A stretch of DNA of 32,207 nt, taken from positions 1-32,207 of the forward strand of contig JALSJH010000010.1 in assembly GCA_026989455.1 (NCBI GenBank), given 5' to 3'. A program made the position numbers and the translations under genes. Numbering within the stretch: the first letter of the stretch is position 1; each line of letters starts with the position of its first letter. Of the stretch, positions 3,886 to 32,189 are shown one piece after another. Source of the DNA: Chromatiales bacterium (lineage in GTDB: Bacteria > Pseudomonadota > Gammaproteobacteria > RBG-16-57-12). The notes under the pieces are model-generated. The model was not told the origin of the DNA. It saw only the letters and a list, made by a program, of their open reading frames with translations, and ran no database searches.

Positions 3886-4053
3886 GTAGAGCTCCTGATG
3901 AGGGTGATGTGAGGTGAATGAAAAACTATAGACTTTGGGTGAAGCTTCTTCTACGGCAGATTTTTAGTTAGCATTAGCCGGTAGATAAGTTCATGCTAAG
4001 CTGGCGTTGCTTTTATCTGTTCTGTATTGGCTTAAATTCGGTCTGTTTTTCTA

Positions 4054-4107
4054 GGGAAGCTCTGGTCAAGTCATCAACGTTTTATGCTGACTTGACCAGC
4101 GCTTCCC
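4054..4107. repeat. palindromic repeat, 20-bp stem (family A, short form)
   Basis: The arms GGGAAGCTCTGGTCAAGTCA (4054-4073) and its complement at 4088-4107 pair at 19 of 20 positions around a 14-base loop. The left arm and loop match the left end of the element at 22920. The arms differ from that copy at the same stem positions on both sides (GGTCAAG against GATTAAG), so pairing has been kept. It ends 19 bases before the GTG of the next gene. Confidence 0.8.
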
Positions 4108-4126
4108 TGGCAGACTATGACAATAG

Positions 4127-5074
4127 GTGGCGGCAGTTTCGACTATGAAATTCAAACTGATATACGAAAATCACGGTAATTTTGGCATTCATGTCGGCGA
4201 CTATTTTCTCTACCTGAAGTATGCGCTGGAGTCATTGGGGCATCGTGCTGATATTGAGTATGCGTTCTGCCCGGGAGAGGTGAATGTTGTGCTTGAGTGC
4301 TTTAATGATGCTTTCACGGAAAAAGTAGAGTCAAACTGGACTCCGGGTACGGCAATGATTGTGATCGCCACGGAGTTTTTGACTGGTAATACCTTTAATG
4401 ACATTTATCAGGATGTGGCTGAGAACCAGATGGCATCTGATCATAATCAGCGCCGCGATTTCTGGCGGATGCGCTATACCAATTTTATCCGTTTGATGCC
4501 CCGTTTCTCTGCCATCTGGCATGTCTCGGATGAGCAGCAGCTTGTTTATCAAAAAGCGTTCCCGGATAAAGTAGTCGACTATCTTCCCCACGGTTATTGT
4601 GAGTCGTTTGCGACCGTTAAGCACCTCAGTGATGGGGAGAAGGATATTGATGTGTTGTTTACCGGCGCGATGACCACCTACCGTCGCCAAGTGTTGGATT
4701 CGCTGGAGCAGGGCGGCTTGACGGTGGTATCAACCGTGCAATTCACCGCCCCCTTTCATCGTGAAGATTTAATCGCCCGCAGCAAGTTAACCCTAAATAT
4801 TAAACAGCACCCCGATTGGCAACACGAGTCGGTGACACGCCTCTATTATCACATTTGCAACGACTCGCTGTTAATGACCGACCAGTGTCGTTATACAACC
4901 GATCTTCACCACCATGTTATCGAGCGGGGTGGCGAGTGGCTGGATGCGGTGCAACAGGTGTTATCCCAGGGGGCATTCACCGAGCGGGCAGTGGCTATCC
5001 GGGAGCGTTATGCCGCCGCACGTCCGGTGGCGGCTCTGATGGATCCGCTGTTGCAGCGGGTTGAGTTATTGTGA
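4127..5074 (+). CDS. glycosyltransferase-like protein (CgeB-like GT-B)
   Basis: A 315-residue soluble protein. The C-terminal half carries a pattern typical of CgeB-like glycosyltransferases: YLPHGYCESF, then IDVLFTGAMTTYRRQVLDSL as the start of the second Rossmann domain, then LTLNIKQHPDWQHESVTRLYY, where the donor-site residues usually lie, and a short SLLMTDQC segment. Transfer of a sugar to a glycan or protein is inferred. The GTG at 4127 gives the longest form; ATG 4145 (MKFKLIYENHG) is an alternative with AGGTGG 14 bases ahead, and the choice is open. Its stop overlaps the next ATG as TGATG, which means translational coupling with the NeuB-like gene and a shared pathway. Confidence 0.6.
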   Translation: MAAVSTMKFKLIYENHGNFGIHVGDYFLYLKYALESLGHRADIEYAFCPGEVNVVLECFNDAFTEKVESNWTPGTAMIVIATEFLTGNTFNDIYQDVAENQMASDHNQRRDFWRMRYTNFIRLMPRFSAIWHVSDEQQLVYQKAFPDKVVDYLPHGYCESFATVKHLSDGEKDIDVLFTGAMTTYRRQVLDSLEQGGLTVVSTVQFTAPFHREDLIARSKLTLNIKQHPDWQHESVTRLYYHICNDSLLMTDQCRYTTDLHHHVIERGGEWLDAVQQVLSQGAFTERAVAIRERYAAARPVAALMDPLLQRVELL

Positions 5075-5928
5075 TGCCTTTTTTTATCGCCGAAGTCTCC
5101 AGTAACCACCATGGCGATCTGCAGCGCTGTTTTCAGTTTATCGATAAAGCGGCTGAAATGGGTTGTGATGCGGTCAAGTTCCAACTGTTTAAAATCGATC
5201 AACTCTTTTCTCCTGAGGTGCTTTCGGCCAGTGAGCAACACCGTCAGCGCCGACAGTGGGAGCTGCCGCTATCGTTTCTGCCTGCTCTGGCAGAGCGGTG
5301 CCAGCAACAGCGTATTCAGTTCTCCTGTACCCCTTTCTATCTGCAAGCCGTCGAGCAGCTTCAGCCCTATGTCGACTTTTATAAAATAGCCTCCTATGAA
5401 CTATTGTGGGATGAGCTGCTGCTGGCGTGTGCTGAAACCGGCAAGCCGGTGCTTCTCTCAACCGGCATGGCAACGTTGGATGAGGTGAAACATGCCGTGG
5501 ATCTGTTTGCCAATAAGCGCCAGCAGTTGAGCTTGCTGCACTGTGTTTCGGGTTACCCAGCACCCATTGAACAGTGTAATCTGGCGGCAATTCAGACCCT
5601 GCGTGATGCCTGTGGTTGCCCGGTGGGTTGGTCTGACCACAGCGTCTCGCCTGCGGTGCTACAACGCGCTGTGCACCGCTGGGGAGCGGAAATAGTAGAG
5701 TTCCACCTTGACCTGGATACACAAGGTGATGAGTATGCAGCGGGGCATTGCTGGCTGCCTGAGCAGATTGCGCCGCTCATCCGAGATATTCGCAGTGCTT
5801 TTACGGCAGACGGCTCGGCACGCAAAGAGCCGGCACCTATTGAACAGGCAGATCGTGATTGGCGAGCAGACCCACAAGATGGCTTGCGTCCACTGCGCCA
5901 CATTCGCAAAACCTTTGGAAGGGGGTAG
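5074..5928 (+). CDS. NeuB-family sialic/nonulosonic acid synthase lacking SAF domain
   Basis: A 284-residue protein of the N-acetylneuraminate synthase family, which condenses phosphoenolpyruvate with a hexosamine-type sugar. It keeps the TIM-barrel markers FIAEVSSNHHGD at the N-terminus, VKFQ, YKIASYELLW, STGMATLDEV, LHCVSGYPAP and GWSDHS. The two likely metal-binding histidines are His189 in SDHS and His211 in EFHLDLD. The second motif replaces the common EKHFTLD, and the last 60-70 residues that form the antifreeze-like SAF domain in standard NeuB (about 345 residues) are missing. The protein instead ends in an Arg-rich tail. Because SAF helps form the active site of the dimer, its substrate may differ from sialic acid. 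ATG 5074 overlaps the upstream stop; GTG 5071 is a second possible start. Confidence 0.8.
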   Translation: MPFFIAEVSSNHHGDLQRCFQFIDKAAEMGCDAVKFQLFKIDQLFSPEVLSASEQHRQRRQWELPLSFLPALAERCQQQRIQFSCTPFYLQAVEQLQPYVDFYKIASYELLWDELLLACAETGKPVLLSTGMATLDEVKHAVDLFANKRQQLSLLHCVSGYPAPIEQCNLAAIQTLRDACGCPVGWSDHSVSPAVLQRAVHRWGAEIVEFHLDLDTQGDEYAAGHCWLPEQIAPLIRDIRSAFTADGSARKEPAPIEQADRDWRADPQDGLRPLRHIRKTFGRG

Positions 5929-5930
5929 TT

Positions 5931-6695
5931 GTGTCAGATCTTGATAAAAATAATGAAAGATTGGTGATCGTGACTGGGGGAACTCGGGGTATCGGCTTGG
6001 CAATTGCCCGCCAACTGGCAAAACAGGGTTATGCGCTGGCACTGTGGTTCCATCAACGCAAACCGGCGGAGTCTCTGCTGGCAGAGCTGCTCTCTTGTGG
6101 TGCGGCAGCTCTCTATTGTGATCAGGTGAATGTGAGTGATCGCGCCTCGGTGGTTAAGGCGTTGGCAGCGCTTCAAGCCTCGCCTTACGCTGTTTATGGT
6201 CTAGTGAATAATGCCGGTATCTTGCAACAAAAGCCCTTTGAAAGCCTGACCGATCAAGAGTGGGATCATCTGCTCGATATTAACCTGAAAGGCAGCTTTA
6301 TTTGTGCGCAATTGGTTATGCCACTGATGCGTCATAAGGGTTTAGGGAGTATCGTCAATATCTCCTCCTCGGGTGGGCAGTTAGGGGGAACCTTGGCGGT
6401 TCACTACGCAGTCAGCAAAGCGGGTGTTATTGCGCTGAGCAAATCACTGGCGCGTGTCGGGGCGGATAACCAGATTCGAGTCAACTGTGTGGCACCCGGT
6501 TTAATTGAGACTGAGATGACCCAAGGGGAAATATCATCCTCGGCAGGTGTTGAAAAAGTGAATCAACTCATCCCGCTGCACCGGGTAGGCCAGCCCGATG
6601 AGGTTGCCGATGCGGTAAGTTTTTTGCTCTCGGATAACAGCCGCTATATCACCGGCCAGACCCTTAATGTGAATGGTGGACTCTATATGGGCTAG
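5931..6695 (+). CDS. short-chain dehydrogenase/reductase (FabG-like)
   Basis: A 254-residue classical SDR using NAD(P)H. TGGTRGIG at 15-22 is the cofactor loop, NNAG at 93-96 the structural motif, and the catalytic set is Asn118, Ser145-147, Tyr159 and Lys163 in YAVSK. VNCVAPGLIETEM follows as usual. The GTG start at 5931 is chosen because GGAAGGGGG lies at 5917-5925, two bases after the stop of the NeuB-like gene; a longer frame upstream runs through that gene and should be rejected. It resembles 3-oxoacyl-ACP reductase, but the cassette suggests reduction of a sugar or small carbonyl intermediate in glycan synthesis. The actual substrate is unknown. Confidence 0.85.
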   Translation: MSDLDKNNERLVIVTGGTRGIGLAIARQLAKQGYALALWFHQRKPAESLLAELLSCGAAALYCDQVNVSDRASVVKALAALQASPYAVYGLVNNAGILQQKPFESLTDQEWDHLLDINLKGSFICAQLVMPLMRHKGLGSIVNISSSGGQLGGTLAVHYAVSKAGVIALSKSLARVGADNQIRVNCVAPGLIETEMTQGEISSSAGVEKVNQLIPLHRVGQPDEVADAVSFLLSDNSRYITGQTLNVNGGLYMG

Positions 6696-12701: not shown

Positions 12702-12717
12702 AAACCACTGCTAACTT

Positions 12718-12759
12718 CCTCTCAACCTAAATTGATCCAGACTTAATCAGAGCTTCCTT
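12718..12759. repeat. solo right end of repeat family A
   Basis: The 35 bases at 12718-12752 match 23038-23072 at 33 positions, ending in GACTTAATCAGAG and then GCTTCCTT, the family A terminus. No left end is found within the expected distance upstream, so this is a broken copy or remnant of a larger element. Confidence 0.65.
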
Positions 12760-13239
12760 GAACGTGTTGCGCAGAATAATATAGTCCTCTCGGCATCCAC
12801 CTCGGTTTGGCACTTCGCCGCCTTCATGGCGCAGACAATGGCTATTCTCGGACAGGCTCCTAGGAGTAATAGAGGTGGCGTGATACCTCCTACTCACTTT
12901 GCAACTCCTCGGCTTTGACATGAGTAAGCCGCCTTAAGGTAGCCTTTACTGCTCAGCAACGGCCAAAAACTAACCGATGACCGCTTTTATTTTTACCATT
13001 AGCTTTTAGAAAAGGTGGGTATTGCCGTTACACCAGTAAGGAATTTGGAGCTAATGCTCCGGCGCAACACCTTCATTTTAAACCACTGGGTTTGCTCAAC
13101 TTGAAGAGGTGGCTAGATGGATGGGCCAATTCTGATGAGCCGCTAAAAGTGAGCGAAAGGGGTTGGCAAAAGATTGAACATGGTACTTTTTAGTGGGCAA
13201 TAACCACGGCTCTACCCAATATATCGGACGAGATTTTCT
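12760..13239. other. gene-poor decayed region
   Basis: About 480 bases without a supportable gene. A minus-strand open frame at 12727-12921 (64 residues) has no family resemblance. The open frame 12981-13193 on the plus strand reads 70 residues but has no start codon; a single-base deletion would join it to ATG 12977, giving a 70-odd-residue reading ending SERGWQKIEHGTF. This could be a frameshifted remnant. An imperfect hairpin GAGTA-GAGGT (12864-12876) with ACCTC-TACTC (12885-12895) is also present. Confidence 0.5.
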
Positions 13240-21506: not shown

Positions 21507-21953
21507 ATGTATCAGAATATTTTGTTGGCAGTGGACTTCTCCAAGGCATCGACATGCGTCGCACAGCGTGCAATGCAGTTAGCCCCCGAGGGTAGTCAAT
21601 TAACCGTGCTGCATGTGGCCGAGTATCTTCCAATGCTTGATTATTCGGGGGACCCGATGGCGATGACACCGCTTGCTATCGATGAAGATCTGTTGATGGA
21701 AGATGCCAAGCAGTCACTACAGCGTTTTGTCGATAAGCATCTGCAGGGTGTCGAGGTGGTGCAGCAGGTGAAAATGGGCATTCCAAAGTTGGATATTTTG
21801 CAGACAGTAGAAAAACAAAATATAGACCTATTAGTGATCGGCTCCCACGGTCGTCATGGGTTGGCGCGATTGTTAGGCTCCACAGCCGCTGCGGTAATAA
21901 ATGATTGCCCCTGTGATATTCTGGCGGTCAGAATTAACCCGGATAATTCATAG
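21507..21953 (+). CDS. universal stress protein (UspA family)
   Basis: A 148-residue single Usp domain. The N-terminus MYQNILLAVDFS is standard, and the ATP-binding glycine motif is conserved as GSHGRHGLARLLGS, followed by DCPCDILAVR. ATG 21507 is chosen since GAGG lies eight bases before it; GTG 21498 and ATG 21501 are upstream options. The last few codons (Pro-Asp-Asn-Ser-stop) come from the MITE-like element inserted at 21938, so the original C-terminus may have been changed. A stress role is typical, with substrate unknown. Confidence 0.93.
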   Translation: MYQNILLAVDFSKASTCVAQRAMQLAPEGSQLTVLHVAEYLPMLDYSGDPMAMTPLAIDEDLLMEDAKQSLQRFVDKHLQGVEVVQQVKMGIPKLDILQTVEKQNIDLLVIGSHGRHGLARLLGSTAAAVINDCPCDILAVRINPDNS

Positions 21954-22098
21954 ATTATGCACAATCTCACTTCTCTATTGATTCCACAGGAGATATTCCC
22001 TCCATCGTCCATAATCGCGGATACGGCGCTTTTTCGGAAATTTCCCTGTGAAACCAATATCCTGCGCAATCTTTGTGCAATCTTATGAATTGTCCGGG
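21938..22098. mobile_element. 161-bp MITE-like element with TTAA target duplication
   Basis: The left end CCCGGATAATTCATA and the reverse complement of the right end, CCCGGACAATTCATAAG, match at most positions. TTAA lies at 21934-21937 and 22099-22102, consistent with a 4-bp target duplication. No coding capacity. A related terminus, CCCGGGTAATTCATAAGC, occurs at 32190-32207 and a degenerate one at 2375-2410, so it is a dispersed family. Confidence 0.75.
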
Positions 22099-22874: not shown

Positions 22875-22919
22875 CATATTGAGGCATTTGCAGTCAGTTG
22901 GTTGCAAAGCTTTTATTAA

Positions 22920-23076
22920 GGAAGCTCTGATTAAGTCATGAATGTTTTATGCTGGCTAAAATTGCCCCCATTTATCCCGAAAATTGCACCAATAGAACAA
23001 CTATTACTGCGCATTTCGGAACAAATGAGAGCAATTCCCTCTCAGCCTAAATTCATCCAGACTTAATCAGAGATTC
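22920..23076. mobile_element. 157-bp MITE-like element with ATTAA target duplication (family A)
   Basis: The ends GGAAGCTCTGATTAAGTC (left) and the reverse complement GAATCTCTGATTAAGTC (right) share CTCTGATTAAGTC. ATTAA flanks at 22915-22919 and 23077-23081, fitting a 5-bp duplication. No open frame of note. The family also occurs as a hairpin at 4054 and a partial end at 12718. Confidence 0.75.
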
Positions 23077-23101
23077 ATTAAATATTACCGAGTAAAATTG
23101 T

Positions 23102-30790: not shown

Positions 30791-30866
30791 GGGGCTATAG
30801 CTCAGCTGGGAGAGCGCCTGCATGGCATGCAGGAGGTCCGCGGTTCGATCCCGCGTAGCTCCACCA
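30791..30866 (+). tRNA. tRNA-Ala (anticodon GGC)
   Basis: A 76-base cloverleaf with CCA encoded. The acceptor stem GGGGCTA pairs with TAGCTCC and includes the G3-U70 alanine identity pair. The anticodon stem CCTGC/GCAGG closes the loop ATGGCAT, giving GGC. The T-arm has GGTTCGATC. Confidence 0.97.
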
Positions 30867-30888
30867 AGACACCAGGTTTTACCCGTGT

Positions 30889-30964
30889 GTCCCCATCGTC
30901 TAGAGGCCTAGGACACCGCCCTTTCACGGCGGTAACAGGGGTTCGAATCCCCTTGGGGACGCCA
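30889..30964 (+). tRNA. tRNA-Glu (anticodon TTC), copy 1
   Basis: A 76-base cloverleaf with acceptor GTCCCCA/TGGGGAC, anticodon stem CCGCC/GGCGG, loop CTTTCAC (anticodon TTC) and encoded CCA. Confidence 0.97.
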
Positions 30965-31042
30965 TTTATTTTTAAGGAAGGTTTGTACTAGGTCGCAAAC
31001 CGGATGCTAGCAATAGCGCACTTTGACACAGCGTTACTCTGT

Positions 31043-31118
31043 GTCCCCATCGTCTAGAGGCCTAGGACACCGCCCTTTCACGGCGGTAACAGGGGTTCGA
31101 ATCCCCTTGGGGACGCCA
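31043..31118 (+). tRNA. tRNA-Glu (anticodon TTC), copy 2
   Basis: Identical over all 76 bases to copy 1, 78 bases downstream of it; the spacer is unrelated to the spacer before copy 1, apart from the final GTGT-like bases. Confidence 0.97.
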
Positions 31119-32089: not shown

Positions 32090-32189
32090 CCCTCGGATAG
32101 AAGCGTGAAGTGGTGTGCATGATATTGGTTTCACAACCCCTCTTTCCGTGCAAAGTTCTCATAATGACTAGATAATGGCTGTAATATAA

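Follow-up and report, generated by a model that had tools for sequence, protein, structure and literature searches.

The usual view of bacterial MITEs is that they are passive relics, with hairpins that are a trivial result of their inverted ends. The SINEs of eukaryotes, also gene-less repeats, conserve their folded RNA in the source elements, while inserted copies decay. As far as the available text of the respective reports goes, long stem-loops are a common feature of MITE transcripts (PMC2229807, PMC10969869), transcripts of the Coxiella QMITE have been detected (PMC5896051), and the RNA of the Neisseria NEMIS repeat has been proposed as a substrate of RNase III (PMC2229807); for E. coli IS5, the accessible part of the source gives YTAR as the target motif (PMC10359306).

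The palindromic repeat family described here is represented by a hairpin at 4055-4106 of the window, the whole 32,207-nt stretch of DNA that was analyzed. Like QMITE1, QMITE2, and Correia/NEMIS, it consists of small gene-less palindromic repeats near genes with foldable RNA; compared by description only, from partial text, QMITE2 has duplications of 7-11 nt and Correia has TA ends, and the sizes differ too. ERIC and other enterobacterial palindromic repeats are likewise about 100-200 bp long, intergenic, and able to form a long RNA stem-loop, but as described in the available text they have TA termini and 7-bp terminal repeats, whereas the ends of our family read GGAA-N-CTCTGA with 4-bp YTAR-like duplications, and thus lack the TA termini and terminal repeats that define ERIC and Correia (PMC2229807). 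The IS5 group shares with our family both the ends and the 4-bp YTAR-like duplications; the window family differs from it in having no transposase gene and in being palindromic over its whole length with a fold conserved on one strand. What is known about the locus is therefore an IS5-type MITE, and what is new is the conserved strand-specific fold: our literature searches returned no description of these ends or of a cross-genus MITE fold conserved on one strand. Rfam searches of seven sources at the gathering score returned tRNAs only, and searches of four sources at E<=1 gave one chance-level match, outside the element.

The hairpin, which the sequence-only reading had placed at 4054-4107, is real. 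An arm search finds an inverted repeat at 4053-4108 with 24-nt arms that are 92% complementary, and its DNA fold of -22.2 kcal/mol (shuffled, -6.05 +/- 1.9) was reached by none of 200 shuffles; it folds well on both strands. The termini are shared, as had been claimed, with the element that starts at 22920 and ends at 23077 (the window has six hits to the terminal motif, 0.17 expected), and the arms do read GGTCAAG/CTTGACC in the hairpin and GATTAAG/CTTAATC in the second element. By its ends, length class, and fold, the stretch at 4055-4106 is an internal-deletion form, 52 nt long, of a palindromic element of 158 nt, and hence a shortened, decaying copy of a gene-less palindromic MITE family; it is flanked by CTAG at 4051-4054 and CTGG at 4107-4110, a target duplication with one letter changed. 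We define R as the strand that ends in TTCATGACTTGATCAGAG-N-TTCC, which is the minus strand for both the hairpin and the element at 22920-23077. The latter is a full-length 158-nt copy with paired ends and an exact TTAA duplication (22916-22919 and 23078-23081), and it folds at -80.2 kcal/mol on the minus and -54.3 on the plus strand. A half copy with only the right end, unpaired, lies on the plus strand at 12713-12762 (terminus 12740-12757), with 86% identity to 23033-23082 over 50 nt.

Further copies, which the sequence-only reading had anticipated, are abundant. The own genome (G000) is a 2.37-Mb draft in 116 contigs and contains 93+99 matches to the terminal motif with <=2 mismatches (reversed control, 0). 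Copies were fetched from the left-end, right-end, and terminal matches listed, and their ends were then paired, giving at least 131 elements across the three genomes of the genus (G000-G002), at least 109 of them in the own genome. These own copies span 37-170 nt and carry no transposase gene; among the 109 resolved, 67 are 158-159 nt long, and shorter classes occur at 84-85 nt (4 copies), 77-79 nt (6), 67-69 nt (7), and 52 nt (10). Exact 4-bp duplications, and none longer, flank 58 of the 109 own copies and 72 of the 131 over the three genomes, 48 of the 72 being of YTAR form (TTAA, CTAG, CTAA, or TTAG). Five of the ten own 52-nt copies, which are without the core, have exact 4-bp duplications, and the 52-nt form is also present in G002; this deletion form was therefore itself mobile. 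Because it has transposed, transposition does not strictly depend on the core, and the proposal that the folded form is required by the transposition machinery is not borne out. Nested copies, with one element inserted within another, and side-by-side copies 4 nt apart were also observed in this genome (C65:14712-14910; C62:11036-11355).

The element ends, GGAA-N-CTCTGA-WY-AAGTC, have perfect matches in 38 of the 369 genomes searched in the class (reversed control, 0). G087 links them to an autonomous transposon: it has a 1,156-bp element with the same ends (<=1 mismatch) and TTAA duplications, the 337-aa frame of which matches NCBIfam transpos_IS5_4 with 318.8 bits (cut-off 140) as well as Pfam DDE_Tnp_1 and DUF772. 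With this transposase as tblastn query, matches were found in 6 of 14 genomes. The MITE-carrying G017 has many IS5-type copies at contig ends with a matching terminus beside TTAA, CTAA, or TTAG, and in the window's genus G001 has a C-terminal transposase fragment with a matching terminus and TTAA after it. The same query found no match in the draft of 116 contigs that represents the own genome, indicating that the IS5 partner was lost or is unassembled, and when the parent was sought with PF01609 in G000-G002, no complete element with these ends emerged. By its ends and duplications, the window element is an IS5-family MITE: the terminal repeats are shared with autonomous IS5 elements, the 4-bp duplication is of YTAR type, and there are many gene-less copies. 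An autonomous partner in the same genome, which is not strictly defining for such a MITE, was not found in the G000 draft. Carriage by viral contigs was rejected, as a search of these for the element gave no match; a search of viral contigs for relatives of a siroheme synthase likewise found nothing.

Within the own genome, variation among copies does not follow the fold. The sequence-only reading had compared two copies and taken their stems to be compensatory, and had named unpaired arm changes in other copies as the observation that would count against this; at the level of copies such changes are what we find. Among the 109 own copies resolved, 56 have the stem GATCAAG/CTTAATC, mismatched on that strand, with GATTAAG/CTTAATC in five, GATCAAG/CTTGATC in three, and the GGTCAAG/CTTGACC of the window hairpin in that copy alone. 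The pair doubly changed in the window copy is at position 11 of the terminal repeat, where the counts are A.T 99, A.C 4, G.T 2, C.T 2, G.C 1, and A.G 1: a lone double change beside single, mostly unpaired ones. In the 73 full-length own copies, which diverge on average by 6.7% from the consensus, variants that keep or break pairing are in ratios of 15:17 for singletons and 6:10 for doubletons, 20:16 for variants in three to seven copies, and 8:1 for those in eight or more; of 32 double changes in own copies, 23 still pair, compared with 18.8 expected from independent arms. Rare variants thus ignore the fold, so that inserted copies decay and the fold-keeping force acts on source lineages. The resident copies, including those of the window, look like decaying relics of source lineages that keep the fold, and the 52-nt copy, without most of the long hairpin, probably has no function beyond that of a generic intergenic hairpin.

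The evidence for such a force comes from the comparison of full-length elements across lineages. The 158-nt element is palindromic over its whole length, and asymmetrically so: the own consensus folds at -84.1 kcal/mol on R and -53.2 on the other strand, the G001 consensus at -88.4 and -56.8, and R has the lower energy in all 73 own and all 17 G001 copies. R folds better because most of its non-Watson-Crick oppositions are G.U, which become A.C on the other strand. Elements of 158-160 nt with the same ends were found in G353, G239, G212, G101, G146, G303, and G017; their arms are largely different, and they share the apex AATAG-N-CTATT and the fold, again on R. Four copies of G353 (L183, L207, L208, and L209) have quite different middle stems, each matched to itself.

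A single sequence-only alignment of 38 type-A elements (A1) gave only 28 consensus pairs and -16.6 kcal/mol, and was split into A2 (19 sequences) and A3 (18) because the middle arms were misaligned between two subtypes; A3 omits the A1 row L212 of G212, and L214, with a degenerate end, is in no alignment. A2 takes, hand-picked, 6 of the 73 own copies, 5 of the 17 of G001, and 2 of G002. The alifold energies on R and the other strand are -128.1 and -81.7 kcal/mol for A2, and -122.6 and -95.3 for A3. In A2, 95.5% of cells are paired and 23 of 67 pairs are doubly changed; in A3 the values are 92.2% and 30 of 66. Covariation is 0.286 for A2 (shuffled 0.171, slid <=0.096) and 0.385 for A3 (shuffled 0.169, slid <=0.091), and was reached in neither case by any of 500 shuffles; it should be noted that the structures were derived from A2 and A3 themselves, which by itself favors register 0 over the slid registers. 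Cells with G.U and A.C number 153:16 in A2 and 129:27 in A3, with G.U above A.C in all 37 aligned sequences. Covariation beyond shuffled and slid controls, and tolerance of G.U but not A.C on one strand, are the marks of a structured RNA, and both are found here. In the suggestion that the folded form is selected, the part concerning the element family thus holds, by the cross-genus fold, the covariation, and the strand-specific G.U; it does not extend to the window copy, nor is it borne out by the evidence originally given for it. One fold and a near-constant length have been kept in this MITE lineage while the arms were rewritten between genera, and the strand asymmetry is as expected were RNA the selected form.

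On R, A makes up 45% and G 27% of the unpaired letters (62 sequences), and A-rich loops are usual for RNA. In A3 the internal-loop letters GAGGC / AAC are nearly invariant, but taken together unpaired columns show no greater conservation than paired columns (entropy 0.89 and 0.86). Strand-biased deamination was rejected as a cause of the G.U excess, as the loops on R are A-rich and low-frequency variants are unbiased; counted by cell, the unpaired positions do tend towards A>G and C>T, mostly as shared variants that are not independent events. Control palindromes decayed without strand preference differ between strands by a mean of 3.8 kcal/mol (sd 8.6), and 3 of 300 such simulations reached >=24 kcal/mol; one lineage would therefore not prove the strand bias, but several do. 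The strand was fixed by homology or pattern for the counts of 73/73 and 17/17 above and 39/41 below, whereas R was chosen by energy in the set of 62 sequences, so that its 62/62 is partly by construction.

The distribution of the family was assessed with a covariance model (R1) built from A3 alone, and thus only from genera other than that of the window. It recovers the full-length copy of the window with 78.8 bits on the minus strand (E=2.3e-16) and 40.2 bits on the plus strand (E=1.5e-7), matches 4055-4106 on the minus strand in a search of the window (E=8.2e-6), and has 105 matches in the whole own genome, both strands counted. Of the 369 genomes of the class, 86 are matched at E<=1e-6, weak matches possibly being other hairpins, and 41 of the 86 have a best E <=1e-15. 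In named genomes, a set that overlaps the class set so that not all are independent, a 21-letter pattern gave at least 108 stretches, mostly in gammaproteobacterial MAGs among the matches listed. Also among the matches listed are Ghiorsea, another zetaproteobacterial MAG, Nitrospirota, Polarisedimenticolaceae, other Acidobacteria, a planctomycete, and a Bacteroidetes MAG; these other phyla were assigned from record titles, and several stem from MAGs that could be mis-binned. The 80 stretches listed yielded 61 paired elements, with no pair at 19 loci; 41 of the 61, from 21 named genomes, are 154-163 nt long, and in 39 of these R has the lower energy. The remaining two come from the planctomycete MAG, and their R-type inner motif lies on the other strand, which the model scored higher. 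Among the matches listed, those from the other Acidobacteria and the Bacteroidetes MAG have the same ends, whereas the type-A apex is missing from them.

Two further forms were observed. Other gammaproteobacterial genomes carry a type-B MITE of about 150 nt with the same ends and several separate hairpins (e.g., L224 and L226 of G328, L194, L199, L187, and L197); seven type-B elements differ by 0.1-8.6 kcal/mol between strands and the eighth, L194, by 13.0. Longer type-A elements of 201-255 nt have extra inserts in the arms or apex (L183:2372-2624, L179, and L229).

We consider it fairly probable that the window hairpin is a deletion copy of an IS5-type MITE whose source copies keep the R-strand RNA fold while inserted copies drift. 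A 158-nt palindromic element has spread through the genome in more than 100 copies, with the 52-nt form as its deletion derivative, and an IS5-family transposase now absent or unassembled in the own genome probably mobilized it in trans. What is kept would be the RNA hairpin made by transcription of R, given the tolerance of G.U wobbles but not of A.C mismatches; the most likely reading is that the transposing source lineages maintain the fold in the form of RNA. By analogy with SINEs, selection would act on the source copies that yield new ones, and inserted copies would drift. Unlike in SINEs, the ends and duplications of this family point to a DNA transposase, and we know of no RNA intermediate for it. 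The role of the RNA might, as a weak guess, be in cis, with the read-through transcript of a source folding into a compact hairpin and keeping that copy active or tolerated. Tentatively, the family may be a gene-less IS5-type mobile structured RNA over several phyla, whose one-strand transcript would form a conserved hairpin of about 66 pairs, with conserved loop letters, that is needed in cis for propagation: a bacterial, DNA-transposing counterpart of SINEs with only source copies under selection. If this were confirmed, dependence of a gene-less bacterial transposon on its own RNA would become testable, and the covariance model would serve the annotation of intergenic repeats without an entry in the Rfam copy searched.

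A plain IS5-type MITE, with a palindrome from founder repeats, drift, a G.U excess by historical accident, and selection on the ends only, would agree with copies that decay regardless of the fold, with the lack of orientation bias (see below), with the long stem-loops common in MITE transcripts according to the available text (PMC2229807), and with the 3 in 300 simulated decayed palindromes that reach a strand difference of >=24 kcal/mol; yet we judge it unlikely, as arms that diverged between lineages are still paired in 95.5% (A2) and 92.2% (A3) of cells, with 23 and 30 doubly changed pairs, every one of the 37 sequences has more G.U than A.C though the paired letters differ by lineage, and the length is steady near 158-160 nt. 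Were the single-stranded DNA hairpin of R the selected form, during replication or excision, G.T would be less harmful than A.C, the palindrome does include the termini, and DNA parameters do favor R, by a mean of 7.8 kcal/mol over the 62 sequences. This is about a third of the 23.9 obtained with RNA parameters, however, many G.T would cost DNA stability, and R is not biased to either skew strand (26:25), so that we regard selection on DNA as quite unlikely. Correction of one arm from the other by template switching within the palindrome could match arms without selection, yielding covarying arms such as those of the four G353 copies and fitting the near-perfect window hairpin, but resident copies with their unbiased singletons show no such correction, the two strands would have to be treated unequally despite random orientation to genes and skew, and the A-rich loops are left unexplained; it seems to us very doubtful.

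Hardly credible is that the hairpin at 4055-4106 persists because it regulates the ORF that follows, as an attenuator or leader; its position about 20 nt before GTG 4127 and its good fold on both strands would speak for this. Its target duplication marks it as an insertion, and copies lie near genes everywhere (median distance 19 nt to a gene end and 39 nt to a gene start), with no preferred orientation to flanking genes among 105 own copies (38:39 and 36:45) or to local GC skew among 53 own copies with long flanks (26:25). With random orientation, a terminator or leader role for particular genes is unsupported, and there is no sign that the host makes use of the R transcript. The ORF itself (4127-5074, plus strand) had been called a glycosyltransferase starting 19 bases past the hairpin. 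It matches no Pfam or NCBIfam family, which leaves that name unsupported; the distance is right for the GTG at 4127, about 19-20 nt past the hairpin, but on sequence reading an in-frame ATG at 4145, preceded by AGGTGG at 4125-4130, looks likelier as the start. This unmatched ORF is followed by a NeuB-family ORF at 5071-5928 and then by a short-chain dehydrogenase ORF (window 4127-6695).

The window holds other repeats besides the MITE copies. A second dispersed repeat forms a 38-nt inverted pair at 2375-2412 and 21936-21973, and its core motif occurs 9+10 times in the own genome with <=3 mismatches (reversed control, 0). A 22-nt inverted pair at 22047-22068 and 32114-32135, 91% complementary, possibly belongs to another repeat family. 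Three tRNA genes lie at 30791-31118, two of which are identical 79-nt copies 154 nt apart.
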